Below, in pieces: positions 14,508 through 47,073 of a stretch of 64,000 nucleotides of DNA; the first letter of the stretch is position 1, and the number at the start of each line of letters is the position of its first letter. Position numbers and translations under genes: made by a program. The notes beneath the pieces were generated by a model. It did no database searches. It worked only from the letters and a program-made list of their open reading frames with translations, and was not told the origin of the DNA. The stretch lies in the NCBI RefSeq assembly GCF_014873145.1, contig NZ_JADBEK010000001.1, positions 4,030,001-4,094,000 of the forward strand, given 5' to 3'. The DNA comes from Nonomuraea angiospora. Its GTDB lineage: Bacteria; Actinomycetota; Actinomycetes; Streptosporangiales; Streptosporangiaceae.

Positions 14508-17500
14508 TCAGGGTGCCAGCTCGGCGCGGCGGGCGCGGCTGCGCGACTCCAGGTAGGTCAGGCCGAGCCGCCGGTGCCGGGCGGCGGCCGCCCGGTTGTG
14601 CTCGAGCGCCTGCTCCGTACGCCCGAGCCGGAGCGCGAGCTCGGCCAGCACGTCGTGCACGCAGCCCAGGGCCGCGCTCCCCGTGCCCAGGACGATGGGC
14701 TGGTCGGCGATCGGCAGCAGCCGCTCGTACATCTCCCCGGGGTCGGGGGTGCCGAGCTGGGCGGCCACCAGGCCCCAGACCGGGAAGAAGAAGTCGGCCG
14801 ACCAGTCCTCCCGCAGGTCCACGCCCCACCGTTCGAGAAGCTCCCTCGCCTGTTCGGTGCGGCCCACGTCCAGGGAGGCCAGGATGGCGAGCGGGCGCAC
14901 CAGGCTCATGAGCGGGCGGTCGCCCGCTGCCACCAGCTCGTCCAGCAGCTCCGCCACCCGGCCCTGGCCGCGCCGGCAGGTGTAGAGGACGCCGAGGCGG
15001 CGGGCCTCCTGGCCCCACAGGCTCGCCCCGAAGGAGATCTTGGGGAAGCTCTCGGCCAGCGCCTCCGCCTCCGCCCACCGCCCGTGCAGGGCGTGGTCGG
15101 CGGTCTGCGCGACGCGGACCATGGCCTCCAGCTCGGGCCGGGCGACCTCGTGCAGGAGCTGCTCGCAGCGGGCCAGGTCCCTGCTCCACTCGGCCAGCTC
15201 GCCCGCGCGCAGCAGGCACGACATGCGCAGCACCCGCGCCACCAGCCTGGCCTCCCTGGGCAGGCCGGGGATGGCCAGCATCTCCTCGGCCGCCGCCAGC
15301 CGCTCGGGGTTGCGGCCGGGTACGAAGCTCGCGATCACGTAGTTGTTGAGCGCCCTGGCCAGCAGCATGGGGTCGCCCGAGCGGCGGGCCAGGCCGACCG
15401 CGTCGAACGCCAGCCGCTCGCCCTCGGCGCGCCGGGGGCCGTAGTGCAGCTCGATGCCGAGCGTGCCCAGGAGCGCGGCCCTGGACCGGTCGTCGAGGTC
15501 GCCCGCCAGGAGGTCCTCCAGGATCGCGACCATGTCCTCGTCCACGACGCCGTACGGGCGCCAGTTCCACACCGACAGGCCGCCGAAGACCGAGACCGCC
15601 GCCACCAGCGCGTCCCGGTCGCCGAGCCGCTGGGCCTGGGCGACGGCCTCGGTCAGGTCGCGGTAGGCGCCTTCGGCGTCGCCCGTGGTGCGCCGGGCCT
15701 GGCCCAGCTCGGTGAGCACGCGGCAGCGCTCGGGCGAGTCGCCGGGCGGCAGGTGGTCGAGCGCCAGCTCCCACAGCTGCACGGCCTCCTGGTAGCCGTG
15801 GCGCTCCGCGGCCTGCGCGGCGGCCCGGACGGCGTACGTGACGGCCTTGGGCGCGCCGCCCAGCCGGGCCCCGGCGGCGAAGTGGCCGGCCAGGATCGCC
15901 GGGTCGGCGCCGGGCAGGGTCTCCAGGTGCCCAGCGGCCCTCAGGTGCAGGCGGGCGCGCTCCAGCCGGGTGAGGCCCTGGTCGAGCGCCTGCCGTACGA
16001 GGGCGTGGGAGAAGCGGTAGTCGGCGGCCCCGGTCGGCGGCTGGGCCAGCAGCCCGGCGGCCAGCGCGGGCTCCAGCCGCGACATGACCTCCTCGACGGG
16101 GCGGTCCGCGAGGGCGGCCAGCAGGTCCAGCTCCACCTCCCGGCCCGCGACCGCGGCGGCTCCGAGCAGGTCCCGGGTGGGCTCGGGGAGGCGGGCCAGG
16201 CGGCGTTCGATGACGTCGCGGGCGCCGGGCGGGACGAGGTGGCGCTCGCGTTCGGGCAGGCGGAGCAGCTCGGTCAGGTAGAACGGGTTGCCGCCCGAGC
16301 GGTCGAGCAGCTCCTGGGGGTCGGCCGCCACGTCGCGCAGGCGCAGGTAGTCGCGCACGCCCGAGGCGTCGAACGGCGCCAGCGGCAGCCTGCGACCCTC
16401 CCTGGCCAGCGCGCCCAGGGTCTCGCGCAGCTGCTCGGGGTGGTCGCCCGGCTCGGGCCTGAGCGTGGCCACGACGAGCGCGGAGGTCCTGGCCAGCTCA
16501 CCGGCGACGTGGCCGAGCAGCTTCAGCGAGGAGGCGTCGGCCCAGTGCAGGTCCTCCAGCACCACGAGCAGGGGGCCGGTCCGCAGCTCCGCCAGCACGG
16601 CGTCGTACAGGTCGAACAGCTCGGCCTGCGGCGACGGCGGGATCAGGCCCGCGCGGGTCCACGGCCAGAACGCCGGGGCCGTGCCGCCGTCGAGGCAGCG
16701 GCCCCACTCCACCCGGAAGCCCCTGGCCGTGGCCACGTCGGCGACGGCCCTGGCCAGGCTCGTCTTCCCGATGCCCGCCTCGCCGGTGACCAGCGCCAGC
16801 CCGCCCCTGCCGTGCCTGGCCCGCGCCAGCAGCTCCTCCAGGACCCGCAGCTCGCCCTCCCTGGCCACGAGCCTGTCGGACCCCGGGCCCGCGGGGACGG
16901 GCGCGGGAACGGGATCAGAGGCGGGCGCCGGGTTGGGCTTGGGGCCCGGGTCGAGCTCGGGCGCCTGCTCGAACACCGCCTGCTCCAGCCGCCTCAGCTC
17001 CGGCCCCGGCTCGATCCCCAGCTCGCCCGCGAGCAGGGCGCGTACCTTGCGCAGCGCCGCGAGCGCGTCGGCCTGGCGGCCCGCCCGGTACAGCCCGAGC
17101 ACCAGCAGCCCCCACGCCCGCTCCCGGTAGGGGTGCGCCTCCGTCAGCGCCTCCAGGTCGGGCACGCTGGCCTCGCCGAGCGCCAGCCGGGCCTCCAGCC
17201 GGTCCTCCTCGGCCGCGAGCCGCAGCTCCTCCAGCCGCGCGGACGCCGCCGGCGCCAGATCGGGGAACTCCGCCAGCGGCTCCCCCCGCCACAGCGCGAG
17301 GGCCCGGTCGAGCGTCCGCGCGCCCTCCGCGTGCCGCCCCTGCCTGACCAGGCGCGCCCCGTCGGCGGCCCACGCGGCGAAGCGGCCCACGTCCGTCTGG
17401 GCGGGCGTGACGTCCAGCACGTAGCCGGGCTCGCGGGTCAGCAGCACCCGGGGCGGCGTGCGCGGCTTGCGGCCCGGCTCCAGCACCCGCCGCAGATGCG

Positions 17501-17702
17501 AGACGTACGCCTGCAGCGTCGCCGTGGCCTTGGCCGGCGCCTCCCCCGCCCACAGCTCCTCGATCAGCCGGTCGAGCGGCACGACGCGGCCGGGCTCGAG
17601 CGCCAGCCTGGCCAGGACCGCCCGCTGCTTGCGGGTGCCGAGGTCGAGCCGGTTGCCGTCGCCGTCGTCCACCTCAAGCGGACCGAACAGTCTGAACTCC
17701 AC
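14508..17702 (-). CDS. Large BTAD-domain transcriptional regulator with AAA ATPase and TPR-like region
   Basis: About 1064 residues. The order is OmpR-type winged helix (1-90), BTAD domain (95-240), a Pro-rich linker (about 255-280), an AAA/NACHT-like ATPase (Walker A GEAGIGKTS, Walker B LLVVLEDLHWAD) and a helical TPR-like C-terminal half. This matches large SARP/LAL-type regulators. The start is uncertain: GTG at 17702 begins VEFRLFGPLEV, the standard family N terminus; an in-frame ATG at 17747 would add 15 residues but leave only 9 bp to the divergent flavoenzyme gene. I prefer GTG. It is divergent from the BBE-type gene, a possible target. Confidence 0.9.
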   Translation of the reverse strand: MEFRLFGPLEVDDGDGNRLDLGTRKQRAVLARLALEPGRVVPLDRLIEELWAGEAPAKATATLQAYVSHLRRVLEPGRKPRTPPRVLLTREPGYVLDVTPAQTDVGRFAAWAADGARLVRQGRHAEGARTLDRALALWRGEPLAEFPDLAPAASARLEELRLAAEEDRLEARLALGEASVPDLEALTEAHPYRERAWGLLVLGLYRAGRQADALAALRKVRALLAGELGIEPGPELRRLEQAVFEQAPELDPGPKPNPAPASDPVPAPVPAGPGSDRLVAREGELRVLEELLARARHGRGGLALVTGEAGIGKTSLARAVADVATARGFRVEWGRCLDGGTAPAFWPWTRAGLIPPSPQAELFDLYDAVLAELRTGPLLVVLEDLHWADASSLKLLGHVAGELARTSALVVATLRPEPGDHPEQLRETLGALAREGRRLPLAPFDASGVRDYLRLRDVAADPQELLDRSGGNPFYLTELLRLPERERHLVPPGARDVIERRLARLPEPTRDLLGAAAVAGREVELDLLAALADRPVEEVMSRLEPALAAGLLAQPPTGAADYRFSHALVRQALDQGLTRLERARLHLRAAGHLETLPGADPAILAGHFAAGARLGGAPKAVTYAVRAAAQAAERHGYQEAVQLWELALDHLPPGDSPERCRVLTELGQARRTTGDAEGAYRDLTEAVAQAQRLGDRDALVAAVSVFGGLSVWNWRPYGVVDEDMVAILEDLLAGDLDDRSRAALLGTLGIELHYGPRRAEGERLAFDAVGLARRSGDPMLLARALNNYVIASFVPGRNPERLAAAEEMLAIPGLPREARLVARVLRMSCLLRAGELAEWSRDLARCEQLLHEVARPELEAMVRVAQTADHALHGRWAEAEALAESFPKISFGASLWGQEARRLGVLYTCRRGQGRVAELLDELVAAGDRPLMSLVRPLAILASLDVGRTEQARELLERWGVDLREDWSADFFFPVWGLVAAQLGTPDPGEMYERLLPIADQPIVLGTGSAALGCVHDVLAELALRLGRTEQALEHNRAAAARHRRLGLTYLESRSRARRAELAP

Positions 17703-34339: not shown

Positions 34340-35377
34340 ATGCGAGCCGTTGCGTTTGACATCTTCGGTGGTGAGCTCGACGTGCGCGAGCTGCCCGACC
34401 CGTCCCCCGCCCCGCACGGAGCGGTGATCAGGGTCGAGGCGACGGGGCTGTGCCGGTCCGACTGGCACGGCTGGCAGGGGCACGACCCCGACATCAAGGT
34501 CCTGCCCCACGTGCCGGGCCACGAGCTGGCGGGCGTCGTCGAGGCGGTGGGCTCCGACGTGCGCGGCTGGCGGCCGGGGGCGCGGGTGACGGTCCCCTTC
34601 ATCTGCGCCTGCGGCTCGTGCCCGTCCTGCGCGACCGGCGACCAGCAGGTGTGCGAGCGGCAGACGCAGCCCGGCTTCACCCACTGGGGCTCGTTCGCCG
34701 AGTACGTGGCCATCGACCACGCGGACGTCAACCTGATCGCGATCCCCGAGGACATGGACTACGCCACCGCGGCCGGGCTCGGCTGCCGCTTCGCCACCGC
34801 CTTCCGCGCCGTGGCGCAAGTGGGCGAGGTGCGGCCGGGCGAGTGGGTGGCGGTGCACGGGTGCGGCGGCGTGGGCCTGTCGGCCGTGATGATCGCGACG
34901 GCGGCCGGGGCCCGCGTGGTGGCCGTGGACATCAGCACCGACGCCCTGCACCTGGCGGAGCGGGCGGGCGCCACGCACTTCGTCAACGGTTCGGCCGGGG
35001 ACGTGGCGGCCCAGGTCAGGGAGCTGACCAGGGGCGGCGCCCACGTGTCGATCGACGCGCTGGGCAGCCCGCAGACCTGCGCCGCCTCCATCGAGAGCCT
35101 GCGCCGCAAGGGCCGCCACGTTCAGGTGGGGCTGCTGCCGGGAGGGCCGACGCCGCTGCCGATGGCCCGCGTGGTCGGCCATGAGCTGCGGCTGCTGGGC
35201 AGCCACGGCATGGCCGCGCACGCGTACCCGCCGATGCTGGAGATGATCAGGGCCGGGATCCTCCATCCCGACCAGCTCGTCACCCGCACGATCGGGCTGG
35301 CCGACGCCGGCAAGGCGCTGGCCTCGATCGGCTCGGTGCCGGGCGTCACGATGATCACTCCTCGAGTTCCACTCTGA
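34340..35377 (+). CDS. Zinc-dependent alcohol dehydrogenase
   Basis: A 345-residue medium-chain dehydrogenase. The catalytic zinc Cys is in [10 protein letters not shown], the structural-zinc cysteines are in CACGSCPSC plus a fourth Cys in QQVCERQ, and the cofactor motif is GCGGVGLS. It oxidises or reduces an alcohol/aldehyde pair; the substrate is unknown. It is cotranscribed with the XRE regulator and its 3' end overlaps the convergent CMD-like gene by 23 bp. Confidence 0.92.
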
Positions 35378-35870
35378 GGGTCCTGAGCACGAGCGCCAGC
35401 ATGGTGTAGTGGGCCACCAGCACGACCAGCTCGATCCTGCCGGGCTCGTCGTAGCGGTCGCAGAGCGCCGTCCAGGTGGCGTCGGTCAGGTCGCCGGCGT
35501 AGTGGAGGTCGTCGGCGACCTGGAGCACGAGCTGGTCCTCGACCGGCCAGAGGGCGTCCGGGTGGCTCACCGAGGCAATCTCCTGGTCCGTGAGCCCGGC
35601 CTCGCGGCCCAGGCGCGCGTGGTGGGCCCAGACGTAGGGGCTGCCGGCGTGGTAGGCGGTGCGCAGGATGGCCAGCTCCCGGTCGCGGGCGGGCAGCGTG
35701 CCGTTGAGCAGCACGCCACCGAATCCCAGCCACTCCTTGTAGAGGGCGGGGTGGCGGGCCAGCGTGGTGAACACGTTCTGCGGATTGGCCTTCGTGAAAT
35801 CGTCCCATTCCTCGGGCGGGAGGGGGCGAACGCGTGGTTCCATGTCGGTGTCCATTCCCCAAAAGCGCAT
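35355..35870 (-). CDS. Carboxymuconolactone decarboxylase-like family protein
   Basis: A 171-residue all-helical protein with the CMD-like core segment [27 protein letters not shown]. The redox CxxC of AhpD is absent, so it is closer to the non-redox members of unknown role. Starts at 35870, 35855 or 35843 are all possible; the first was kept. It is not linked to the pca operon at the window start. Confidence 0.8.
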
Positions 35871-35971
35871 GTTTGGTCTGACGGTTATTTGGCAGGACTT
35901 TTCACACCCAGGTCAATAAGTCAGGATTAGGGCACTCCCAGACGTTGCAAGCCGGCCGACCGCAAGGACGC

Positions 35972-36580
35972 ATGGTGATTCGAACGTTGCTCGCTGAGGA
36001 CATGAACCTGGTACGCGGGGCGCTCGTGGCGCTGCTGGCTTATGAGGAGGACATCGAGGTCGTGGCCGAGGTCGCCCGGGGAGATCGCATCCTGGCCGCG
36101 GCCAGGGCCTGCCGCCCGGACGTCGCCGTGATCGACATCGCGTTGCCCGGCAAGGACGGGCTCGCCGCCGCCGGCGAGCTGCACGCGAAGCTGCCCGAGT
36201 GCGGGGTGCTCATCCTGACCGGCGTGGGCACGCCGGGCCTGCTCAAGCGGGCGCTCGACGTGCACGTACGGGGCTTCATGGCCAAGGACGCCCCGCCGGA
36301 CCGGCTGGCGGACGGGATCCGCCGGGTGGCCGAGGGAGAGCGGGTCATCGACTCGGAACTGGCCATCGCGGCCATGCGGCCGCCCGAGGCGCCGCTGACG
36401 CCGCGCGAGCTGGACGTGATCGGGGCCGCGGCGGACGGGGCGTCGATCGGGGAGATCGCAGCGTCGCTGTACCTGTCGGAGGGCACGGTGCGCAACTACC
36501 TGTCCAAGACGACGGCCAAGCTGGGCGCCCGGGGCAGGATCGACGCCATCCGCATCGCCAGGGAGTCAGGCTGGATCTAG
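35972..36580 (+). CDS. LuxR/NarL-family response regulator of the lanthipeptide locus (RamR-like position)
   Basis: A 202-residue regulator. The receiver domain is complete (acidic pair in LLAEDMN, phospho-Asp in VIDIALPG at about residue 52, Thr in LILTGVG, Lys in GFMAKDAP) and the C-terminal LuxR helix-turn-helix is LTPRELDVIGAAADGASIGE, then EGTVRNYLSKTTAKLGA. The ATG at 35972 follows AAGGA. It is convergent with the prolyl oligopeptidase gene at the end of the lan operon; the orphan sensor kinase at the other end is the likely partner. RamR plays the same role for SapB, so it probably activates lanKC. Confidence 0.88.
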   Translation: MVIRTLLAEDMNLVRGALVALLAYEEDIEVVAEVARGDRILAAARACRPDVAVIDIALPGKDGLAAAGELHAKLPECGVLILTGVGTPGLLKRALDVHVRGFMAKDAPPDRLADGIRRVAEGERVIDSELAIAAMRPPEAPLTPRELDVIGAAADGASIGEIAASLYLSEGTVRNYLSKTTAKLGARGRIDAIRIARESGWI

Positions 36581-38527
36581 TCAGGCTGGATCCAGGCCCG
36601 TGTGGGCGGCCAGGAAGGCGAGGGCGTCCGCCGCCAGCGCGACCGACCTGCTGGCCGCCCGCGCGCCGTGGCCCACGTCCGGCTCGTGCCGGAGCAGGAT
36701 CGGCCGGTCCCCGCCGGCCGCCCACTGCAGGGCGGCGCACATCTTGCGCGCGTGCATCGGATCGACCCGCGTGTCTCCCGCCGAGACCGTGAACAGCGTC
36801 GCCGGGTAGTCCGTCCCCTTCCTGACGTGGTGGTAGGGCGAGTAGGCGAGCAGCCAGGCGAGCTGCTCGGGGTCGTCGGGGTCTCCGTACTCGCCGGTCC
36901 AGGAGGGGCCGAGGCCGCCGAGGTGGTAGCGGGCCATGTCGAGCAGGCCCGCCGAGCACACCGCCGCCGCGAACAGGCCGGGCCGCTGGGTGAGGGCCGC
37001 GCCGACGAGGAGGCCGCCGTTCGACTCGCCCCAGATGCCGAGCTGCCCGGGGGTCGTCCAGCCGCCGTCGATGAGCTTGCCGGCGGCGGCCGCGAAGTCG
37101 TCGAAGACGTTCTGCTTGCGCTCCAGCATGCCGTCCCGGTGCCATTCCTCGCCCTCCTCGCCGCCGCCTCTGAGGTTGGCGACGGCCAGCACGCCGCCCG
37201 CCTCGACCCAGGCCAGGGAGTCGGCGGCGTAGCCGGGCCGCAGGGGGATGCCGAAGCCGCCGTACCCGGTGAGGATCGTGGGACGGGGGCCACCCGCCGA
37301 GGGGCCCGCCACCACGACCATGCGGACGCGGGTGCCGTCGGCGGAGGCGTACTCGAGGTGGTGGCTGCGCACGGCGGGCCGGCTCACGCGGCCCGGCGGG
37401 GCCGACCAGAGGGTGGTCTCGCCGGTGCGGACGTCGTGCCGCCAGACCTCGGGCGGCGTGACGGCGTCGGTGTAGGCGAACCACGCCTCGGAGCCGCCGC
37501 CGGGGCGCGAGGTCAGCGAGGCGATCGTGCCGCTGCCGGGCAGCGGCACGGAGCCCAGCCGCTCCCCCGTGCGGGCGTGGTGGACGGCGATCTCCCCCAC
37601 GGCGTGGCGGGTCCGGGCGACGAGCAGCCGGTCGCCGTCGAGCACGGTGAACGCGCCCAGCACCGCCTGCGGGTCCTCGGGGACCAGCTCCCGCCACGCG
37701 GCGGGCTCGGCCGGATCGGCCACGCAGAGCCTGCGCCGCGGCGCGTCCCGGTCGGTGACCAGGTAGAGGCGGCCGTCGCAGGCCACCGCGGCCGCCAGGG
37801 CGTCCGGTACGGGGCGGGGCTCGCCCCGGCCGCCCGGCTCGGCGAGCCAGAGCGAGCCGCCCGCCGAGATCGTCAGCCAGCGGCCGTCGGCGCTGATCTG
37901 CACGCCGTACCGGAGCGGCCCTCGCGTGAAGACGGGGACGTCCGCCGCGTCGCCGATCGTGTGCAGGTAGACGCCCTCGTGGAAGCGCACGTAGTAGAAG
38001 GCCGCGCCGCCCGGCAGCCAGGCGACCGCGGAGTAGCGGCAGCCGCCGATGGGCCCGTCCACGACGGCCCCGGTGTCGACGTCCCTGACGTACAGGTCCG
38101 CCTTCTCGTCGCCCCGGCGGGAGATCTGGTACGCCAGGAGGCGCCCTTCCGGGTCGGGCTGCCAGTCGTCCAGCGTCGTGAGCCCCGTGGGGTCGAGGTC
38201 CATGGGGTCGAGGACGACGCGGTCGCCGCAGTGGAGGACCGGATGCTCCTGGGAGGTGGTCTGGCGCAGGTGGAAGCTCCGCTCGCCGCGCCAGAGCGGC
38301 GGGGTGACCAGGCCCGTCTCCCTGAGCTCGGTGAGCCGGGCGAGGAACCGCTCGCGCTGGGGCAGCCGGGCGGCGTGGTCGCGCCACAGGCGGTCCTGCC
38401 CGGCCAGCCAGGTCTTGGTGCCGGGGTCGTCGGGGTCTTCGAGCCAGAGGTACGGGTCGTCGAGGTCGCTCGGTGCCGAGCTGCCGGGGAGGCGCTCAGC
38501 GCGCGGATATTTGTCCAGAAATTTCAT
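36581..38527 (-). CDS. Prolyl oligopeptidase (S9A), likely lanthipeptide leader peptidase (FlaP-like)
   Basis: A 648-residue serine peptidase: N-terminal DPYLWLED typical of prolyl oligopeptidases, a seven-bladed propeller (about 70-370) and a C-terminal hydrolase with nucleophile GESNGG (Ser502), Asp in SAGDTRVDP and His in DVGHGAR. It overlaps the second ABC gene as ATGA, the last gene of the lan operon. Prolyl oligopeptidases are known to remove the leader of some class III lanthipeptides (flavipeptin FlaP), cutting after Pro; the precursor here has Pro12 in its leader. No signal peptide is present, so it acts in the cytosol. Confidence 0.92.
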   Translation of the reverse strand: MKFLDKYPRAERLPGSSAPSDLDDPYLWLEDPDDPGTKTWLAGQDRLWRDHAARLPQRERFLARLTELRETGLVTPPLWRGERSFHLRQTTSQEHPVLHCGDRVVLDPMDLDPTGLTTLDDWQPDPEGRLLAYQISRRGDEKADLYVRDVDTGAVVDGPIGGCRYSAVAWLPGGAAFYYVRFHEGVYLHTIGDAADVPVFTRGPLRYGVQISADGRWLTISAGGSLWLAEPGGRGEPRPVPDALAAAVACDGRLYLVTDRDAPRRRLCVADPAEPAAWRELVPEDPQAVLGAFTVLDGDRLLVARTRHAVGEIAVHHARTGERLGSVPLPGSGTIASLTSRPGGGSEAWFAYTDAVTPPEVWRHDVRTGETTLWSAPPGRVSRPAVRSHHLEYASADGTRVRMVVVAGPSAGGPRPTILTGYGGFGIPLRPGYAADSLAWVEAGGVLAVANLRGGGEEGEEWHRDGMLERKQNVFDDFAAAAGKLIDGGWTTPGQLGIWGESNGGLLVGAALTQRPGLFAAAVCSAGLLDMARYHLGGLGPSWTGEYGDPDDPEQLAWLLAYSPYHHVRKGTDYPATLFTVSAGDTRVDPMHARKMCAALQWAAGGDRPILLRHEPDVGHGARAASRSVALAADALAFLAAHTGLDPA

Positions 38528-40236
38528 GACACGGGCTCCGGGTGCCAGTGGCCGGCCAGGTCGGCGTAGAGGGCAGAGGTACTGATCAGCTCGTCGTGGG
38601 TGCCGATGCTCACCCGGGTTCCGTCCATGAGGAGGATGCGGCGGGCGCGCAGCGCGGAGGTGAGGCGGTGCGCGACGACGACGAGCGTGCCGCCGCGCCG
38701 CGCGAACGCGGTCTCCGCACGTGCCTCGGCTGCGGGGTCGAGGTGGCAGGTGGCCTCGTCGAGGATCACCAGGGGCGCGGGGGTGAGGTAGGCGCGGACG
38801 AGCGCGATGAGCTGGCGCTGCCCGGCCGACAGCGCCGCCGGGTCGAGCCGCGCCCCGTAGCCGCCCAGCTCGTCCACCAGCTCCCGGGCGCCGACGGCCG
38901 CGACGGCCTCGTCCAGCCTCGCCGGGCCGTCCGGCGTGCCGAGGGCGGTGAGGTTCTCCATGAGGGTGCCGCGGAAGACGTACGCCTCCTGGGGGATCAG
39001 TACGCGGACGGCGGGGTCGAGCCGGTCGGCGGGGACGCCGCCGACCAGCGCCTCGCCGCTGCCGGGCAGGAGCATGCCGCTGACCAGGGCCGCGAGCGTG
39101 GACTTGCCGGCGCCGCTGGGCCCCACGACCGCGAGGTGGTCGCCCTCGGGGATGGCGAGGTCCAGGCGGTCGACGACGGGGGCCGAGTGCGGGCCGTACG
39201 CGAAGGTGACGGCGGACAGCCGCACGTCGCAGGCGCCGGGGCGGATCCTGGGCCGGGGCGGCCCGATGGACGGCCCGGCGGGCGGGGCGGAGGCGGCGAT
39301 GCGGCCGAGCGTGGCGGCCAGCCGGATGCCGCTGACCCCGAGGCCCTGCACGAGGCCGCCGAGCGCGGGGGCCAGGGACTGCGTGACGTACGCGAGCGTG
39401 CCGGCGATCACGCCGGGGCCGAGGTCGCCGTCCAGCAGCCGTGGGGTGCCGGCCAGCACGAGGACGACCGGCAGCCAGCCGCCCACGGCCAGGGCGGCGG
39501 TGCGGGCGGCGGTCACCCCGGCGAGCGCGCGGGCGGCGGCGGCCTGCGCGCGGACCTGGCGATCCAGCCGCTCGGCCACGGGTTCGCGCAGGCCGCACGC
39601 CTCGATGTCGCGCAGCCCGCCGACCGTGGCCGTCATCTCGTCGGCCAGCCGTTCGTCGGCCAGCAGGAACGCCCGCTGCCTGCGCGCGAGGGCCGGCAAC
39701 GAGGCCAGGAACAGCCCGAGCCCGGCCGCGAACGGCGGCAGCACGAGGGCGAGCGCCTGCGGGGCCAGCGCCGCCAGGCCCAGCACCACGCCGGCCACCG
39801 TGAACACGAACCCCCGCACAGTGGTGACGACGGCCGCGAAGGCGTCCCTGGCCAGCTCGACCTGGAGCGTCGCCCTGGCCACCGCGGCGCTGTCGCGGCT
39901 CGCGCCCCGGGTCAGGGTCCCCTCGACGACGTGCGTCAGGAGGTCGTCCCTGAACGGCTCCGCCACCGCCGCGACGCCCAGCACGACCTGCCGCGCGGCC
40001 ACCGCCCCGACCAGCCACGCGACGCCGAGGGCGGCCAGCCACGCCAGCCCGGTCGCGGGTTCGGCTTTGGCGAACCCGTCCTCGATGGCCCGGGCGACGG
40101 CGTACCCGATGAGGAACGCGGGCGCCGCCTCCAGCACGGACCAGAACCCGATCGAGGCCAGCCGCCGCGGCTCCCGCCCCAGCGCCCGCCAGAACATCGC
40201 CCCCGCTGGTCGCCGCCGTCGAAGGGGGCGCTTCAT
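38524..40236 (-). CDS. ABC exporter half-transporter, lanthipeptide locus (RamB-like)
   Basis: 570 residues: a six-helix membrane domain (about 30-310) and a C-terminal ATPase with Walker A GPSGAGKST, signature LSAGQRQL, Walker B LVILDEAT and switch His in VVAHRLTSA. Its ATPase site is consensus in Walker B (DE). It overlaps both neighbours as ATGA, so it is coupled to the first exporter gene and to the peptidase. With its partner it probably forms a heterodimeric exporter for the lanthipeptide, as RamA/RamB does for SapB. Confidence 0.92.
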   Translation of the reverse strand: MKRPLRRRRPAGAMFWRALGREPRRLASIGFWSVLEAAPAFLIGYAVARAIEDGFAKAEPATGLAWLAALGVAWLVGAVAARQVVLGVAAVAEPFRDDLLTHVVEGTLTRGASRDSAAVARATLQVELARDAFAAVVTTVRGFVFTVAGVVLGLAALAPQALALVLPPFAAGLGLFLASLPALARRQRAFLLADERLADEMTATVGGLRDIEACGLREPVAERLDRQVRAQAAAARALAGVTAARTAALAVGGWLPVVLVLAGTPRLLDGDLGPGVIAGTLAYVTQSLAPALGGLVQGLGVSGIRLAATLGRIAASAPPAGPSIGPPRPRIRPGACDVRLSAVTFAYGPHSAPVVDRLDLAIPEGDHLAVVGPSGAGKSTLAALVSGMLLPGSGEALVGGVPADRLDPAVRVLIPQEAYVFRGTLMENLTALGTPDGPARLDEAVAAVGARELVDELGGYGARLDPAALSAGQRQLIALVRAYLTPAPLVILDEATCHLDPAAEARAETAFARRGGTLVVVAHRLTSALRARRILLMDGTRVSIGTHDELISTSALYADLAGHWHPEPVS

Positions 40237-41906
40237 GGCGTGGCTCCCTGGAAGACGGCCCGGTAGGCAGGGTCCCGCCACAGCACGTCGTGCGGCCCCC
40301 GGCCGCGCACCCTCCCGCCCTCCAGCCAGACGACCTGGTCGGCGCGGGCGGCGGTGGCGAGCCGGTGGGCCGCGATCAGGCGGGTGCGGCCCCGCCGGTC
40401 GGTGGTGAGCGCCCGGCCGACCTCGCGCTCGGTCACGGTGTCGAGGCTGGAGGTGGCGTCGTCGAGCACCAGCAGCCGCTCCCCCTGCGCGAACGCCCTG
40501 GCCAGGCCGATCCGCTGCCGCTCGCCACCGGACATCGGGGCCTCGCGCAGCGGGGTGCCGTAGCCGAGCGGCAGCCGCCGGACGAACGCGTCGGCGCACG
40601 CCGCCTTCGCCGCCTCGACGGCAGGGGGCCCGGCGGCCGTCGTGATGGCCTCCGCCACGGTCTCGCCCACCAGGACCGGGCGTTCGAAGGCGTACCCGAT
40701 GGCCCTGCGCAGCTCCTCGCGCGACAGCTCCCGCAGCGGGACCCCGTCGAGCAGGACCGCGCCCCGCTCCGGGTCGGCCAGGCGGCCCGCCAGGGCGGCC
40801 AGCAGCGACTTGCCCGCGCCGGACCGTCCCACCACGGCGGTCACCGAGCCTCCGGGCAGCGTGAGGTCGCCGACGGTCAGGCCGTCCACCGCCACGTCGC
40901 GGAACTCGACCGTGCCCGGCCCGGGAGGGAGCGTCCGCGTGCCGTGCTCGACGGGGGCGAGGTCGAAGATCTCGGCCACCCGCCCGGCGGCCGCCCGTGC
41001 CCGGGCCAGCCCGCCGACATGGCCCAGGGCGGTGCTCAGGGACGCCCCGAGCACGGCGTAGCGGGCGGCGGCGTACAGTTCCCCGACCGTCAGCCGGCCG
41101 GAGGCGAGCATGAATCCCCCGACGATCAGCACCGCGACCTCCAGCAGCGGCACCACGAGCCCCGACTGGACCGCGGCCCCGGCGTTGGCCCGCCACAGTG
41201 ACATGCCGTGGGCCCGCAGCCGGGGCAGCGGCTCCAGCACGCGCCGCGCCTCCCGGGCCGCGGTCCCCGCCGCGGCGATCGTGCGCGCCCCCTCCATGGC
41301 GTCCACGAGCCGCGCGGCGATCTCCCCCTGCACCTCCTGGTACCCGCCCGAGATCACCGTCGTCGCGCGGAGGAAGGCGCGCAGCACGAGCAGGATGGCG
41401 ACGATGCCCACCCCGAGCGTCAGCGTCAGGACGGGCGCGATGAGCGTGAGCGCGACGAGCGCGCCCGCCGTGGGCACGAGCAGCGCGAGCGCGCCGGTCA
41501 CCGTCTCCGGGGCCCGGCCCGCCTCCTCGGCGTTCAGCCCGGCCCGGGTGACCAGCTCGCCTTCCGGGAACCGCCGGGTGGCCGCCGGCCCGGCGCCGAG
41601 CACGTGACGCAGGACCCCCAGCCGCAGCCTGGCCGCGGCGAACGCGCCGCAGGCGCCGCGGGCCCAGACGCCGAGGCTCTCGCAGAGCACGACGGCGGCG
41701 ACGGCGCAGGCGCAGAGCGCCAGCCAGGACGAGCCGTCCGGCCGGCGCAGGACGAAGGCGTCCACGGTGCGCCCGACGAGGTACGGGACCGCCAGCTCAC
41801 CGGCCGCGCCCACGAGCGCCGTGACGGCCAGGACGGCGGGCCAGGGGCCGCTGCGCCGTACCGTGCCGACCACCAGCCGATCACCAGCGCGGTCTCCCGC
41901 TCGCAC
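40233..41906 (-). CDS. ABC exporter half-transporter, lanthipeptide locus (RamA-like)
   Basis: 557 residues, a fused membrane and ATPase half-exporter: Walker A VGRSGAGKS, signature MSGGERQR, switch His in IAAHRLAT. Walker B reads LLVLDDATSSLD, with Asp where the catalytic Glu normally stands, so one of the two ATP sites of the heterodimer is probably degenerate, as in other heterodimeric exporters. The GTG start at 41906 follows AGGAGGT. It lies 63 bp after the precursor gene in the same operon. Confidence 0.92.
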   Translation of the reverse strand: MRAGDRAGDRLVVGTVRRSGPWPAVLAVTALVGAAGELAVPYLVGRTVDAFVLRRPDGSSWLALCACAVAAVVLCESLGVWARGACGAFAAARLRLGVLRHVLGAGPAATRRFPEGELVTRAGLNAEEAGRAPETVTGALALLVPTAGALVALTLIAPVLTLTLGVGIVAILLVLRAFLRATTVISGGYQEVQGEIAARLVDAMEGARTIAAAGTAAREARRVLEPLPRLRAHGMSLWRANAGAAVQSGLVVPLLEVAVLIVGGFMLASGRLTVGELYAAARYAVLGASLSTALGHVGGLARARAAAGRVAEIFDLAPVEHGTRTLPPGPGTVEFRDVAVDGLTVGDLTLPGGSVTAVVGRSGAGKSLLAALAGRLADPERGAVLLDGVPLRELSREELRRAIGYAFERPVLVGETVAEAITTAAGPPAVEAAKAACADAFVRRLPLGYGTPLREAPMSGGERQRIGLARAFAQGERLLVLDDATSSLDTVTEREVGRALTTDRRGRTRLIAAHRLATAARADQVVWLEGGRVRGRGPHDVLWRDPAYRAVFQGATP

Positions 41907-41969
41907 CCGATACCTCCTGAGAGTCGGCGTCCCCGCGCCGTGGCACGGCGCGGGGACTGATATGGCGGA

Positions 41970-42101
41970 TCAGTGGCAAAGTGCGACACTGAGGTTGCTG
42001 GGCTTGCCAGAGTGACACGAGAGAACCGTCAGCGTGCTGCCACCACTGGCGACGTCGCTGGCCGCGGGCGCCTCGAGACCCTGCAGGTCGAGAAGAACCA
42101 T
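41970..42101 (-). CDS. Class III lanthipeptide precursor (RamS/LabA-like)
   Basis: A 43-residue peptide too short for routine gene calling. Leader: MVLLDLQGLEAP, with the LLDLQ-type motif that LanKC enzymes recognise (RamS has LFDLQ). Core: two ring motifs, S22-x-x-T25-x-x-x-C29 and S35-x-x-S38-x-x-x-C42, then a terminal His, matching the two SxxSxxxC rings of SapB. The ATG at 42101 has AAGGAGGT upstream, encoded within the last codons of lanKC, whose stop is 5 bp away. Ring 2 fits a labionin or lanthionine. Ring 1 has Thr at the second position. Pro12 is a likely peptidase site; Gly20-Gly21 precede the core. Confidence 0.9.
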   Translation of the reverse strand: MVLLDLQGLEAPAASDVASGGSTLTVLSCHSGKPSNLSVALCH

Positions 42102-42106
42102 CCTTG

Positions 42107-44632
42107 TTACACCTCCTTCCAGGACTCGTCGGGGGCGAGCCGCCCGGGAGCGGCCGCCAGGAACGGCAGGTGGCCAGGCTGGTCGCCCAGAGCCGTGCCG
42201 AGGGCGAAGAGCACGCCCGCCGTCCCGGTCGCGAAATCCATGGAGAGGCGCAGCAGCTGGTCGCCGGGGAACGCCAGTCCCCCGCCGTACGGCAGCGCGT
42301 GCCATCTCAGGCCCTTGATGTGCTCGCGCGGGTCGCCCGCGCGGGCCGCGAGCATGCCCGCGCGGCCGGTGAACAGCCCCGACTGGACGAAGAAGCCCGC
42401 GTGCCCGGCCAGCCGCAGCTCGGCCAGCGCCGTCGCGAGCTCCTCGTCGTGGTGGTGCGCGAGGTAGCGCTCCAGCACGAGGGCGATGCCGGCCGACCCC
42501 TCGTCCAGGTACGGCAGCAGCCGCCAGCCCTGGTTCACCTGGAGCGAGCCGTCCACCGAGTGCCGGCAGCGCCGCAGGTCCTGCCGGAGCGCGGTGGCCG
42601 CCAGGTCGAGCAGGGCCCGGTCGCCGGTGTGCTCGTACGCGTGCAGGAACAGCAGCGCGGGCCCCGACGAGCCGAACATGAGCCCGGCCCTCGGGTGGGA
42701 GCCGCCGCTGAGCTCGGGGACGGGTTCGGCGAGCCGCTCGGCGCAGATGTCCACGGCGCGCAGGGCGAGGTCGGTGCGGCCGAAGCCGAGGAGGTTCAGC
42801 CCGATGCCGGACAGGCCGGAGAACAGCGCCGACTCCATCCGCTCCCATTTCTCGCGCAGGCAGACGTCGACCAGCTCCTGCGCGTGCTCGTGGTGTCCGA
42901 GCAGGCCGAGGACGTGCGCGATGCCGTGCAGCCCGTCGTACAGGCCGAGCCCGGAGCCCTGGACGGGGCGCAGCGCCCGGTCGCGTAGCCAGCGCTCGTA
43001 CTCGGGGAACGGCCCGAGTCCCGCGCGGTCGAGCGCGAAGAGCACGCCGGCCGCGCCGTAGGCCAGGTTGAGCCCGCCGCCCGGCCGGAACTGGGCCACG
43101 TCGCCGGGGAAGAGCCGGTCGTCGCGCGCGGGCGTGGCGCTGGCCACGATGGCCCGGCACATCGCGTCGCGCAGCTCGGGCCAGGTCTCCGGCATGGTCA
43201 CGGGCTCGCCGCGGTCGGAAACGGGCCCGCTGATGGCCGCGACGGCGGCGTCCACCGTCGCCTCCTGCACGGGGAACGTCTCCTTGACGATCTCCCCCAG
43301 CTGGGCCGCCTTCGCCCGGTATAGCGGCAGCATGATCGTGCACTGCGGCGCGAACAGGCCGAGCCCCAGGCAGGCCAGCGCGTAGCGGTCCACGTCCACG
43401 CCCTGGCGGTCGGGGGGCGCGATGAAGGCGGGGTGGGCCAGCGCGGCGCGGGCCCCGTCCGCGACGAGGGTGGCGACCTCGTAGTCGATCAGCGCCACCC
43501 GGCCCTCGGCGGTCAGCAGGATGTTGTCCGGGTGCAGGTCGCCGAAGACGACCCCGCGCTCGTGCAGCGACTCGACGGCCCGCTCCACGTTCCGCAGCGT
43601 CTCGACCGCCCAGGCCGTGTAGTCGGCCAGGTCCGGCTCGGTGCGGTCGGCGCGGGTCAGCGGGTAGCGCTGCACGAGCCGGCGCTGCAGCGGCGTCCCG
43701 TCCACGAACTCCTGCACGAGGAACTCGTGCTCGCCCAGGGCGAAGTAGCCGCGCAGCGCGGGCGCGGCGGGCAGGCCCTCCAGGCGCCGCAGGATGTCGC
43801 GTTCGTGGCGGAGGCGGGTGACGGCGTCGCGGCCGGCCGCGTCCAGCCCGGCGTGCGGCCTGGCCTCCTTGAGCACGACCCGCTCGTCCGTACGCGTGTC
43901 CCGGGCGAGGTAGACGCCGCCGCCGTTGGAGAAGTGCAGCACGCTCTCGACCCGGTACGGCAGCCCGGTCGTCGTCACGGCGTTGCGCGCGGCCAGATGC
44001 GGCTCCAGGAACCCGGGCAGCGTCGTCCACGGCGGCACCGAGAACGTCGCGCCGCGCACGTCGGGCACCAGCCGCCCGTCGCCGTCCTCGACGGCCAGCA
44101 CGCGCTCGCCGGAGCCGGACAGGCAGTGCCGCTCGGCGAACCCGCCGTACCTGACGAACAGCGGGCCGTCGCCGTAGCGCAGGTCGCTGAGGATGTACGG
44201 GCCTTCGACGCCGCGCAGCAGCTCGTCGAGCTCCTTCAGGACCAGCTCCAGCTGGCCCTCGTCCCTCGGGTAGACGGTGATCAGCTTGCCGCTGGACGCC
44301 CGGGAGGCGGCCTTCGAGTTGACCATGACGAGCACGGGGGTGCCGCGCAGGAACTTGAACGCGATCCGGCGCGCCAGGCAGTAGTCCCACACGGCGGCGA
44401 TGGCCCGCTCGGCGTCCTCCACGCGGGCGGACACGTGGATCTTCCAGCCCTGGGCGGGCAGGGGCGGCTCGTTGTCGGGGGCGAAATAGCACCACGTGCC
44501 GGTCAGGGCGGTGGACCAACCGTCGGGCAGGGGTTCACGCAGAAGGGGAAAGTCGGCGTCTTCGGCCGTGCCGTGTTCGAGCGAGTCGTAGAAACGCGGA
44601 TCCACCAGGCAGTACAGCTCGTACTTGTCCAT
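42107..44632 (-). CDS. Class III lanthipeptide synthetase (LanKC)
   Basis: An 841-residue three-domain enzyme, the normal LanKC length. The N-terminal lyase region (about 1-210) holds WKIHVSA and FKFLRG. A Ser/Thr kinase-like domain (about 220-520) has VVLKEARP, the catalytic loop FGDLHPDNIL near residue 362 and LIDYEVA. The C-terminal LanC-like cyclase (about 540-841) keeps SGIGLNLLG and GSSGPALLF but shows no Cys/Cys-His zinc ligands, which is typical of class III rather than class IV. It phosphorylates and dehydrates Ser/Thr of the precursor and forms (methyl)lanthionine or labionin. It is the first gene of the operon. Confidence 0.95.
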   Translation of the reverse strand: MDKYELYCLVDPRFYDSLEHGTAEDADFPLLREPLPDGWSTALTGTWCYFAPDNEPPLPAQGWKIHVSARVEDAERAIAAVWDYCLARRIAFKFLRGTPVLVMVNSKAASRASSGKLITVYPRDEGQLELVLKELDELLRGVEGPYILSDLRYGDGPLFVRYGGFAERHCLSGSGERVLAVEDGDGRLVPDVRGATFSVPPWTTLPGFLEPHLAARNAVTTTGLPYRVESVLHFSNGGGVYLARDTRTDERVVLKEARPHAGLDAAGRDAVTRLRHERDILRRLEGLPAAPALRGYFALGEHEFLVQEFVDGTPLQRRLVQRYPLTRADRTEPDLADYTAWAVETLRNVERAVESLHERGVVFGDLHPDNILLTAEGRVALIDYEVATLVADGARAALAHPAFIAPPDRQGVDVDRYALACLGLGLFAPQCTIMLPLYRAKAAQLGEIVKETFPVQEATVDAAVAAISGPVSDRGEPVTMPETWPELRDAMCRAIVASATPARDDRLFPGDVAQFRPGGGLNLAYGAAGVLFALDRAGLGPFPEYERWLRDRALRPVQGSGLGLYDGLHGIAHVLGLLGHHEHAQELVDVCLREKWERMESALFSGLSGIGLNLLGFGRTDLALRAVDICAERLAEPVPELSGGSHPRAGLMFGSSGPALLFLHAYEHTGDRALLDLAATALRQDLRRCRHSVDGSLQVNQGWRLLPYLDEGSAGIALVLERYLAHHHDEELATALAELRLAGHAGFFVQSGLFTGRAGMLAARAGDPREHIKGLRWHALPYGGGLAFPGDQLLRLSMDFATGTAGVLFALGTALGDQPGHLPFLAAAPGRLAPDESWKEV
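42111..42118 (-). promoter_or_regulatory. Ribosome-binding site of the lanthipeptide precursor gene
   Basis: AAGGAGGT, a near-perfect Shine-Dalgarno sequence formed by the last sense codons of lanKC (Lys-Glu-Val), 9-10 bases before the precursor ATG. It fixes the start of the 43-residue gene and should give strong translation relative to lanKC. Confidence 0.8.
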
Positions 44633-44757
44633 CTGGCGCCGACCTCCAAGGCGTTGTCCCTTAGAGATTGCCGTCGATGGCGGGATTCGGTCTAGTTACA
44701 CGTAACAACACCGAAATATGGTTATTGAAATTGCATTTGTGTGTTTTTCATAATTGG
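44633..44757. promoter_or_regulatory. AT-rich promoter region of the lan operon with a GTTAC/GTAAC dyad
   Basis: A 125-bp gap between the kinase-gene stop and the lanKC start, much more AT-rich than its surroundings from 44690 on. It contains GTTAC-AC-GTAAC (44695-44706) about 63 bases before the lanKC ATG. This is the most likely promoter and response-regulator site of the lan operon; the exact -35/-10 cannot be fixed by eye. Confidence 0.5.
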
Positions 44758-45879
44758 CTATTTCTTTCGTGGGACGTACGCGCTGAAGGTGAACTGCCCG
44801 GTCCTGGAGGACGTGGCCTCCAGCCAGCCGCCCAGGCAGGAGACGCGTTCGGCCAGGTTGAGCAGGCCCTGTCCGGTGTCTTCCGGGCGGCGCGGCGGGC
44901 GCACGCCGTCGTTCCTGATCGTCAGGCGGACGAGCTGGTCGCGTTCGAGGAGCTGGATCGAGCACTGCCGGGCCTCGGCGTGCCTGAGGACGTTCGTCAC
45001 GCCTTCGCGCAGGGCGTGCGTGAGCGCCTCCTCCACATCGCCGGGGAGGTCGGGGCAGGACATCTTGACCTGGCAGCGGACCCGTACCGACTCCAGGAGC
45101 GAGCGCGCCGAGCCCAGCTCCGCCGCCAGGGAGGAGCTGCGCAGGCCGTGGGCGACGGCCCGGACGTCGGCGGACAGGCTGCGCAGCAGCTCCACCGTCT
45201 CGGACGCCTCGCCCCGCGCCCGCTTGTCGCCCTCGGCCACGAGCCGCTCCAGGAGCTGCGCCTTCAGCACCAGGACGGTGAGCCGGTGGCCGACCAGGTC
45301 GTGCAGGTCACGGGTGAAGCGGCGGCGCTCCAGGGCGACGGCCTCGCGCATGACCTCGGTACGCGCCTTCGTCAGCCGCGTGACCCGCCCGCCCAGCGTC
45401 ACCAGCGCGTACTCGACGGCGCCGAGCACCGGGCCGGCCAGCGCCCAGGCGGGATGGATCATCGCCGGGTCCGGCGCGGCCAGCATCACCGGGCCGCACG
45501 CCAGGGCCAGCGCCACCAGCACGACCGAGCGGATCCGGCCCGCCGTCACCAGCAGCGCGCCCGTCAGCAGGGCGGACACCGGGGTCCACGCCGCGCCGAA
45601 CACCGTCAGCGGCAGGTACGTCAGCCAGGCCTGCACGGCCACGATCCACCACGAGCCCGCCCGCCGTATCGGGGTCTCCATGATGAACCTGACGTGCAGC
45701 GTCAGCAGGACGAACAGCGTCACCCCGCCCGCGATCCCCATCCCCGACCGCACCAGCCCGAGCAGGACCGGCACCGTCACGCCGAACAGCCCCGCCGCCA
45801 GCCCGAGGCCGCCCAGCCAGCCGGGGTTCTTCAGTTTGGAACGTGCCCACGACAGGAGTGCACGGTGTGCGCCTTCCAC
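44758..45879 (-). CDS. Sensor histidine kinase, DesK/NarL-type, of the lanthipeptide locus
   Basis: About 373 residues from the GTG at 45879 (VEGAHRALLSWAR), chosen because it follows GGGGGTGAG; longer starts are possible. Four to six membrane segments (about 20-160) precede a HisKA_3 box with the phospho-His in RRFTRDLHDLVGH and a HATPase with GVTNVLRHAEA and DTGQGLLNLAERV. It lies on the same strand just upstream of lanKC and has no adjacent regulator, so its partner is probably the LuxR-type regulator at 35972. The input signal is unknown. Confidence 0.88.
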   Translation of the reverse strand: MEGAHRALLSWARSKLKNPGWLGGLGLAAGLFGVTVPVLLGLVRSGMGIAGGVTLFVLLTLHVRFIMETPIRRAGSWWIVAVQAWLTYLPLTVFGAAWTPVSALLTGALLVTAGRIRSVVLVALALACGPVMLAAPDPAMIHPAWALAGPVLGAVEYALVTLGGRVTRLTKARTEVMREAVALERRRFTRDLHDLVGHRLTVLVLKAQLLERLVAEGDKRARGEASETVELLRSLSADVRAVAHGLRSSSLAAELGSARSLLESVRVRCQVKMSCPDLPGDVEEALTHALREGVTNVLRHAEARQCSIQLLERDQLVRLTIRNDGVRPPRRPEDTGQGLLNLAERVSCLGGWLEATSSRTGQFTFSAYVPRKK

Positions 45880-46104
45880 CTCACCCCCGGTATGCGGTTG
45901 GATCGCCGGTTCCGGCCGTGTCGCGAGAGCCCGCCCGCCGTTGTCTCGCTTCCCCCTAATCGACCCGATCGGGCTCGTCCCTGTAAAGGTCGTTGCCGCT
46001 TTTGGACACCCCTGACTTCCCGTCGGGCCGCCGGTTAACCAGACCAATCCGTTCCCTCCCAGGGGGGCGACGAACCACCACAAAGCCCACCCTAGGGTTG
46101 GCAT

Positions 46105-47073
46105 ATGGAATACACCCGACTTGGCACCACCGGTTTGAAGGTCTCGAAGATCTGCCTGGGCATGATGAGCTACGGCGACCCCGCCAGGCAGGAGTGGGCC
46201 CTGGCGCTCGACGAGGCCGAGCCGATCATCCGCAGGGCCGCCGACGCGGGCGTGACCTTCTTCGACACGGCGGACGTCTACAGCCAGGGCGCCAGTGAGA
46301 CCGTGACCGGCGAGGCGCTGCGCGCGATCTTCCCCCGGCGCGAGGACTACGTACTGGCCACCAAGGTCTACTTCCCCATGGGCAGGGGCGTCAACGACCG
46401 GGGGCTGTCGCGCAAGCACGTCCACGCGGCCGTGGACGCCTCGCTCCAGCGGCTCGGCACCGACTACGTGGACCTGTACCAGATCCACCGGTGGGACGAC
46501 GAGACGCCCATCGAGGAGACCATGGAGGCGCTGCACGACGTGGTCAGGGCGGGCAAGGCCCGCTACATCGGCGCGTCGAGCATGTGGGCCTGGCAGTTCT
46601 CCAAGGCGCAGCACGTGGCCGAGAAGAACGGCTGGACGAAGTTCGTCTCGATGCAGAACCACTACAACCTCCTCTACCGGGAGGAGGAGCGGGAGATGCT
46701 GCCGCTCTGCGCCGACCAGGGCGTGGGCGTGATCCCGTGGAGCCCGCTGGCGCGCGGCGTGCTGGCCAGGGCCGGCTCGGCCGCGACGACCGCGCGGACC
46801 GGGTCGGACGAGCGCATCGACTTCCTGTACGACCCGGAAAACGACAAGGCGATCCTCGACCGGGTGGCGCGCGTGGCCGCCGAGCGCGATCTGCCGGCCG
46901 CCCAGGTGGCGCTGGCCTGGCTGCTCCACCAGCCGGCCGTGTCCGCGCCCATCGTGGGGGCCACGAAGGATCGGCACGTGGACGACGCGGTGGCGGCCGT
47001 GTCGGTGTCGCTCTCGGAGTCGGAGCTGGCCTTTCTCGGCGAGCCGTACCGTCCCCGTGAGGTGCGCTTCTGA
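46105..47073 (+). CDS. Aldo/keto reductase
   Basis: A 322-residue AKR of the YajO/DkgA-like type with the catalytic Asp/Tyr in FFDTADVYSQG, Lys in LATKVYF and His in LYQIHRWDDE. It uses NADPH to reduce carbonyls; the substrate is unknown. It is divergent from the lan-locus sensor kinase across 225 bp and 39 bp before polX. It could belong to either unit but is more likely general metabolism. Confidence 0.92.
   Translation: MEYTRLGTTGLKVSKICLGMMSYGDPARQEWALALDEAEPIIRRAADAGVTFFDTADVYSQGASETVTGEALRAIFPRREDYVLATKVYFPMGRGVNDRGLSRKHVHAAVDASLQRLGTDYVDLYQIHRWDDETPIEETMEALHDVVRAGKARYIGASSMWAWQFSKAQHVAEKNGWTKFVSMQNHYNLLYREEEREMLPLCADQGVGVIPWSPLARGVLARAGSAATTARTGSDERIDFLYDPENDKAILDRVARVAAERDLPAAQVALAWLLHQPAVSAPIVGATKDRHVDDAVAAVSVSLSESELAFLGEPYRPREVRF

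Follow-up and report, generated by a model that had tools for sequence, protein, structure and literature searches.

Class III lanthipeptides of the SapB/AmfS family are known from the ramCSAB–ramR locus of Streptomyces coelicolor and from AmfS of S. griseus, where a precursor of the families PF19402/NF033212 is accompanied by a LanKC synthetase, two ABC half transporters and the gene of a LuxR-type regulator. The ram gene order is also named in passages of PMC13380574. In the flavipeptin cluster of Kribbella flavida, a class III synthetase is encoded together with a prolyl oligopeptidase (POP), FlaP, and the precursor FlaA carries a proline in its leader. According to parts of PMC10885120, Pro(-12) is the only residue after which FlaP efficiently cleaves cyclised FlaA, and metalloproteases with both endo- and aminopeptidase activity likely complete the trimming. 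A prolyl oligopeptidase-family protease, LanPB, is likewise found in class III clusters of Streptococcus (passages of PMC7268733); by description, these differ in belonging to Firmicutes, in their other precursor family and in an additional CAAX protease. Here we analyzed a 64,000-nt stretch of the genome of Nonomuraea angiospora, which is a single contig of 13.09 Mb (NZ_JADBEK010000001.1, positions 4,030,001 to 4,094,000; hereafter the window), and found in it a locus with lanKC, a SapB/AmfS-type precursor gene, two half ABC exporter genes and a POP gene on the minus strand. The locus is a further SapB/AmfS-family lanthipeptide gene set, and thus a system of an already known kind. Judged from its sequence as a whole, it is very probably an operon for a class III lanthipeptide with a SapB/AmfS-family precursor and belongs to a POP-bearing, flavipeptin-like branch.

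The assignment to the SapB/AmfS family is well supported by both the precursor and the synthetase. The precursor scored 47.5 bits against PF19402 (RamS; cut-off 24.3) and 51.1 bits against NF033212 (SapB/AmfS; cut-off 25). The preliminary description of this DNA had called it unlisted, which does not hold for its family: of 168 homologues at E ≤ 0.01, 120 were listed, and several of these are 86–88% identical and named SapB/AmfS family lanthipeptide. A locus of N. jabiensis (L010) encodes the identical peptide. Behind a leader with the LxLQ-type motif LLDLQ, the precursor has two ring motifs of the form S-x-x-[S/T]-x-x-x-C, namely S22/T25/C29 and S35/S38/C42. When 12 homologues, taken from the window and the 120 listed sequences, were aligned, these six residues were invariant together with P12, G20, G21, P34 and H43. 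Among 54 same-genus genomes, the window's genome included, PF19402 matched 39 precursors in 34 genomes, all 39 of them following a LanKC on the same strand at a distance of at most 1 kb, which argues that the precursor call is not due to chance. A precursor missing beside such a lanKC in other genomes, the outcome named beforehand as telling against the proposal, was not seen: all 37 LanKCs scoring at least 1009 bits in these genomes have a neighboring SapB/AmfS-type precursor. Multiple precursors also occur, as in the same-genus locus L117, with five different LxLQ-type candidates downstream of one class III synthetase, and in Streptosporangium subroseum (L017:12586-13310), with four tandem precursors that have Gly-rich leaders and the same core.

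Class III synthetases are distinguished by a cyclase domain devoid of the zinc ligands of LanC, LanM and LanL. The LanKC of the window covers positions 1–833 of the 833-position class III model NF038151 with 1050.5 bits (cut-off 575), versus 363.3 bits against the class IV model NF038150, under its cut-off of 650. A search by motif alone, without alignment of the ligand positions to a zinc-binding cyclase, found no CHG in the protein. The best relative in the PDB is the class III lanthionine synthetase LanKC (E 1.5e-76). The protein is 95% identical to the LanKC of N. jabiensis, and LanKC matches over the cut-off occur in 40 of the 54 same-genus genomes. A second lanthipeptide synthetase is encoded elsewhere in the genome; it is a class IV LanL (NF038150, 751.5 bits, cut-off 650; C1:10940739-10943555, minus strand).

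Two peptide patterns were used to find 534 relatives, of which the best 80 were kept for comparison with the locus; with the window, this gave 81 loci. Precursors were sought by a profile built from homologue hits, and distant ones may be missed. For POP, 72 loci were scorable; seven were dropped for short downstream sequence (L006, L018, L022, L041, L077, L081 and L083, of which the first three have a PSxLS core and two have no recognized core) and two for lack of a recognized precursor (L082 and L084). POP lies downstream in 55 of the 72 loci, and all 55 combine P12 with the PSxLS core, in which an inter-ring Pro-Ser leads into the second ring, while this core is seen in none of the 17 loci without POP. 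In each of the 48 distinct precursors of the POP loci, GG is followed by S-x-x-T-x-x-x-C; then come a linker of five residues, the last of them Pro, the second motif S-x-x-S-x-x-x-C and a C-terminal His. Leader Pro12 was rejected as a marker of POP-bearing loci, since 11 of the 17 POP-less loci have it as well. The same picture was obtained within the genus, for which 40 of 57 LanKC matches were taken and 17 left out, the window's own among them: the PSxLS core occurs in 18/18 loci with POP downstream (8 repeating loci of the first set, 10 new) and was seen in 0/22 without. Among these 22, a precursor candidate of the LxLQ type was accepted in 12 and none in 10 (the match in L130 looks like chance); downstream sequence is short in L133 (2.4 kb) and L122 (4.9 kb), and L132 has a POP-like match upstream of LanKC. 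Three genomes carry PF19402 precursors of both kinds: G025 (L150 with POP, L151 without), G051 (L137, L138) and G040 (L136, L135).

The POP-bearing loci span seven families of Actinomycetota and come in two gene orders. In 16 loci of one clade (12 Kribbella, Jiangella, Labedaea, Nocardioides and Microlunatus), POP starts 236–545 nt after LanKC, directly behind the precursor; the remaining 39 have it behind the ABC genes, starting 3.5–4.3 kb after LanKC. The core type is unchanged across both orders. On the LanKC tree, the only POP-less locus within the POP clade is that of Planomonospora sp. ID67723 (L025), whose core is changed as well; it groups with two other Planomonospora (SH-aLRT 94). 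According to passages of PMC7268733, a protease is usually missing from class III clusters of Actinobacteria; here, POP tracks the core sequence. The POP loci thus offer a natural series of substrates on which the sensing of ring formation by a FlaP-type POP could be studied, and in Nonomuraea and its kin POP is a candidate for removing the leader of SapB-family peptides.

With a POP in the cluster, the locus resembles the flavipeptin cluster with FlaP more than the SapB locus, and the former is therefore its closer studied relative (passages of a review and of PMC5719810). The comparison rests on 12 Kribbella loci, with K. flavida and the FlaA sequence outside that set. All 12 have POP and the same core type as the window, e.g. 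GGSTLTVLGCASQTPSNLSLLLCH, and in six of them Pro12 lies, by count, exactly 12 residues before the Ser that follows GG. They differ from the window in the position of POP, directly behind the precursor rather than behind the second ABC gene, and in the absence of an upstream kinase from the 9 loci that could be judged. Compared with SapB/AmfS, whose loci are known here by description only, the window adds POP and the upstream kinase, has Thr as the second residue of the first ring and has a linker ending in Pro-Ser. The six scored Micromonospora loci have the precursor core SRASLLLCGDSSLSVTTCN or close variants, which we take to resemble the core of SapB; in these six, no POP and no kinase directly upstream were found.

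These features enable us to propose a putative pathway. LanKC would bind the LLDLQ leader, phosphorylate and eliminate Ser/Thr and close two rings, S22-x-x-T25-x-x-x-C29 and S35-x-x-S38-x-x-x-C42, which from the motif may be lanthionine or labionin. Both half transporters would assemble into a single exporter. POP, whose best PDB match is the prolyl endopeptidase 2bkl (E 2.8e-117) and in which we take Ser502, Asp589 and His620 by their motifs to be the likely catalytic triad, would cut the leader, most likely after Pro12, with a preference for the cyclised peptide as in FlaP. Afterwards, a host aminopeptidase, perhaps one of the three M1 peptidases matched outside the cluster in this genome, would trim the product to the Gly-Gly/Ser22 boundary.

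Several observations weigh against leader removal by the clustered POP and against a tight coupling of POP to the core. If the core begins at Ser22, Pro12 of the window precursor stands at -10 and not at -12, and with Pro12 present in most POP-less loci, a leader proline alone is no sign of a POP site. A second POP, 61% identical, is encoded elsewhere in the genome and could stand in for the cluster enzyme; POPs of about 60% identity were likewise found outside the cluster in four searched Streptosporangiaceae genomes whose cluster lacks POP, and two Micromonospora genomes gave POP matches of only 31–32% identity. Taking the best 80 of 534 relatives with two peptide patterns biases the locus set to near kin. 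On the LanKC tree (a quick method with SH-aLRT values only, a midpoint root for drawing and seven long branches flagged), the distribution of POP takes no more than 2 changes, two being required by well-supported branches, so that the POP–core association, though consistent, has few independent events behind it. Moreover, passages of PMC5719810 report POP-like genes in Brevibacterium clusters, where only one of six precursors has a leader Pro; the POP–core rule is thus not universal.

POP might also be a passenger, and the leader might be taken off by a host protease from outside the cluster, such as an AplP-like M1 metalloprotease. Extra-cluster AplP-like M1 proteases process several class III leaders, that of the flavipeptin precursor included (parts of PMC10885120 and PMC12328550), and the three M1 matches and the POP-less loci with Pro12 would agree with this. 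However, POP is kept in 55/55 loci with the PSxLS core in spite of two gene orders, and in the window its gene overlaps the stop codon of the second exporter gene; we consider the passenger reading unlikely. Since the 48 precursors set POP loci apart by the inter-ring Pro-Ser and not by the leader Pro, POP might instead cut, or also cut, after Pro34, parting the rings or destroying uncyclised precursors rather than removing the leader. The behavior of FlaP, efficient on cyclised FlaA only after the leader Pro(-12) in the passages of PMC10885120, speaks against it, and the inter-ring Pro-Ser may accompany POP through common descent, given the two tree changes; this reading seems very improbable to us.

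The arrangement of the locus is given in the table below. In minus-strand order it runs kinase, a 125-nt gap (44633-44757), LanKC, precursor, hairpin, first exporter (ABC1), second exporter (ABC2) and POP. The earlier proposal of lanKC, a 43-residue precursor, two half ABC exporters and a POP on this strand was borne out in all four parts; in ABC2, a Pfam search found no PF00664 match at E ≤ 0.001. The coupled starts of that proposal apply in part: the precursor ATG lies 5 nt beyond the LanKC stop codon, and ABC1/ABC2 and ABC2/POP share 4-nt ATGA overlaps, but ABC1 starts without overlap 63 nt beyond the precursor stop codon, past the hairpin. The ram-like order stands for lanKC, the precursor, the two ABC genes and a terminal regulator gene, with POP and the upstream kinase as extras. 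The LuxR-type regulator gene is indeed at the far end, but it is read from the plus strand and meets POP tail to tail, with adjoining stop codons; being convergent, it therefore falls outside the operon. The sensor kinase gene is present upstream as proposed; with a gap that carries a conserved motif before lanKC, it may or may not be co-transcribed.

Table. Features of the lanthipeptide locus in the window
Feature	Position	Strand	Basis
Sensor histidine kinase, 373 aa, GTG start	44758..45879	-	PF07730 HisKA_3 54.7 bits, PF02518 28.8 bits
Two conserved islands 5' of lanKC (TG-N8-CA-like block and GTGTNACTAG)	44692..44750	-	19-locus alignment
LanKC, class III lanthionine synthetase, 841 aa	42107..44632	-	NF038151, PF25816, PF00069, PF05147, PDB LanKC relatives
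Precursor peptide, 43 aa, two predicted rings	41970..42101	-	PF19402, NF033212
Hairpin, 13-bp stem, in the precursor/ABC1 interval	41929..41957	-	Folding and conservation
Half ABC exporter 1 (ABC1), 557 aa, GTG start	40233..41906	-	PF00005 79.9 bits, PF00664 59.2 bits
Half ABC exporter 2 (ABC2), 570 aa	38524..40236	-	PF00005 71.2 bits
Prolyl oligopeptidase (POP), 648 aa	36581..38527	-	PF02897 169.5 bits, PF00326 168.9 bits
NarL/LuxR-type response regulator, 202 aa	35972..36580	+	PF00072 61.6 bits, PF00196 49.1 bits

An alignment of 19 loci revealed the two conserved islands upstream of lanKC, likely a promoter/operator. In the 81 loci, all 16 occurrences of GTGTNACTAG on the coding strand lie at most 160 nt upstream of LanKC, versus 2 occurrences on the other strand. 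The pattern GTGTNACTAGNC has one match in the whole genome, upstream of this lanKC, and the reversed pattern has 15; its uniqueness is partly due to the tetranucleotide CTAG, which is rare in such genomes. Looser TGTGA-type patterns were discarded as unspecific, with 14 matches on the coding strand, 7 of them upstream of LanKC, and 14 on the other strand. The lanKC motif was not seen 5' of the response-regulator gene in 19 poorly aligned upstream regions. Of 73 loci, 29 have a relative of the kinase directly in front of LanKC, with 4 left unjudged, and a convergent relative of the response regulator lies downstream in 56 of 73, with none found in the remaining 17 and none co-directional. By motifs that we take to be diagnostic, His193 within DLHDLVGH is the likely phospho-acceptor of the kinase, and Glu9, Asp55, Thr83 and Lys105 are the phospho-site residues of the regulator, Asp55 being the likely phosphorylation site. 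Kinase and regulator might act as a dedicated pair on the element upstream of lanKC. We tentatively add a broader idea, which we regard as rather unlikely: protease and core may evolve as one specificity unit, in which POP reads the inter-ring Pro-Ser turn of the cyclised two-ring core as a completion check before the leader cut; in Nonomuraea and its kin, the peptide may, by way of the kinase/regulator pair and a promoter element unique in the genome, serve as a private autoinducing signal.

The genus Nonomuraea is described as forming an aerial mycelium, and the preliminary description had suggested a role of the peptide in aerial growth. A mature peptide acting as a SapB-like surfactant on which aerial hyphae depend would be compatible with the preferred reading of the locus as a POP-bearing class III operon. 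The precursor families are those of SapB/AmfS, the ram-like gene order ends in a regulator gene, and the genome also encodes chaplin-family proteins. Some Streptomyces respond to class III peptides with aerial hyphae; durhapeptin S26T had this effect in four strains but none in its own source strain (passages of PMC13380574). On the other hand, a class III synthetase over the cut-off is missing from 14 of the 54 same-genus genomes (13 of the 41 good-quality ones), the Micromonospora loci have a SapB-type core from which that of the window differs, and the lanKC promoter motif, with its single occurrence in this genome, marks no chaplin gene. We regard the surfactant role as possible, with the balance leaning against it; as a claim about this locus, a role in aerial growth goes beyond the evidence and is inference only. 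As to the chaplins themselves, a 718-aa frame holds eight ChpA-C domains in one chain (C1:7556567-7558723, minus strand), and a ninth ChpA-C match lies at C1:7492736.

The interval between the precursor and ABC1 contains the hairpin; the 66-nt stretch 41907-41972 folds with -34.9 kcal/mol (z -3.50). An uninterrupted stem of at least 9 bp within 60 nt after the last precursor stop codon is present in 69 of 74 loci, versus 15% of composition shuffles, and the 75 nt after the precursor fold with z < -2 against dinucleotide shuffles in 63/74, while the stem sequences vary between genera. No intrinsic terminator with a T tract was found in 41850-45000, and without a T tract behind it the hairpin is not a classical terminator. 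A scan of 35000-47000 with 4227 Rfam families gave no match at the gathering score, and an open-access literature search returned no paper pairing RamS, SapB and a stem-loop. The hairpin may be a stabilizer or a partial attenuator, which would raise precursor mRNA over exporter mRNA.

Two further features were seen in the window. Where the POP and response-regulator genes meet, GATCCAGCCTGACT is duplicated in tandem (36564-36592), with both stop codons inside. Elsewhere, a 1511-codon frame contains a minus-strand Trans_reg_C match of 49.9 bits (17415-17636); it presumably encodes an AfsR/SARP-like regulator.

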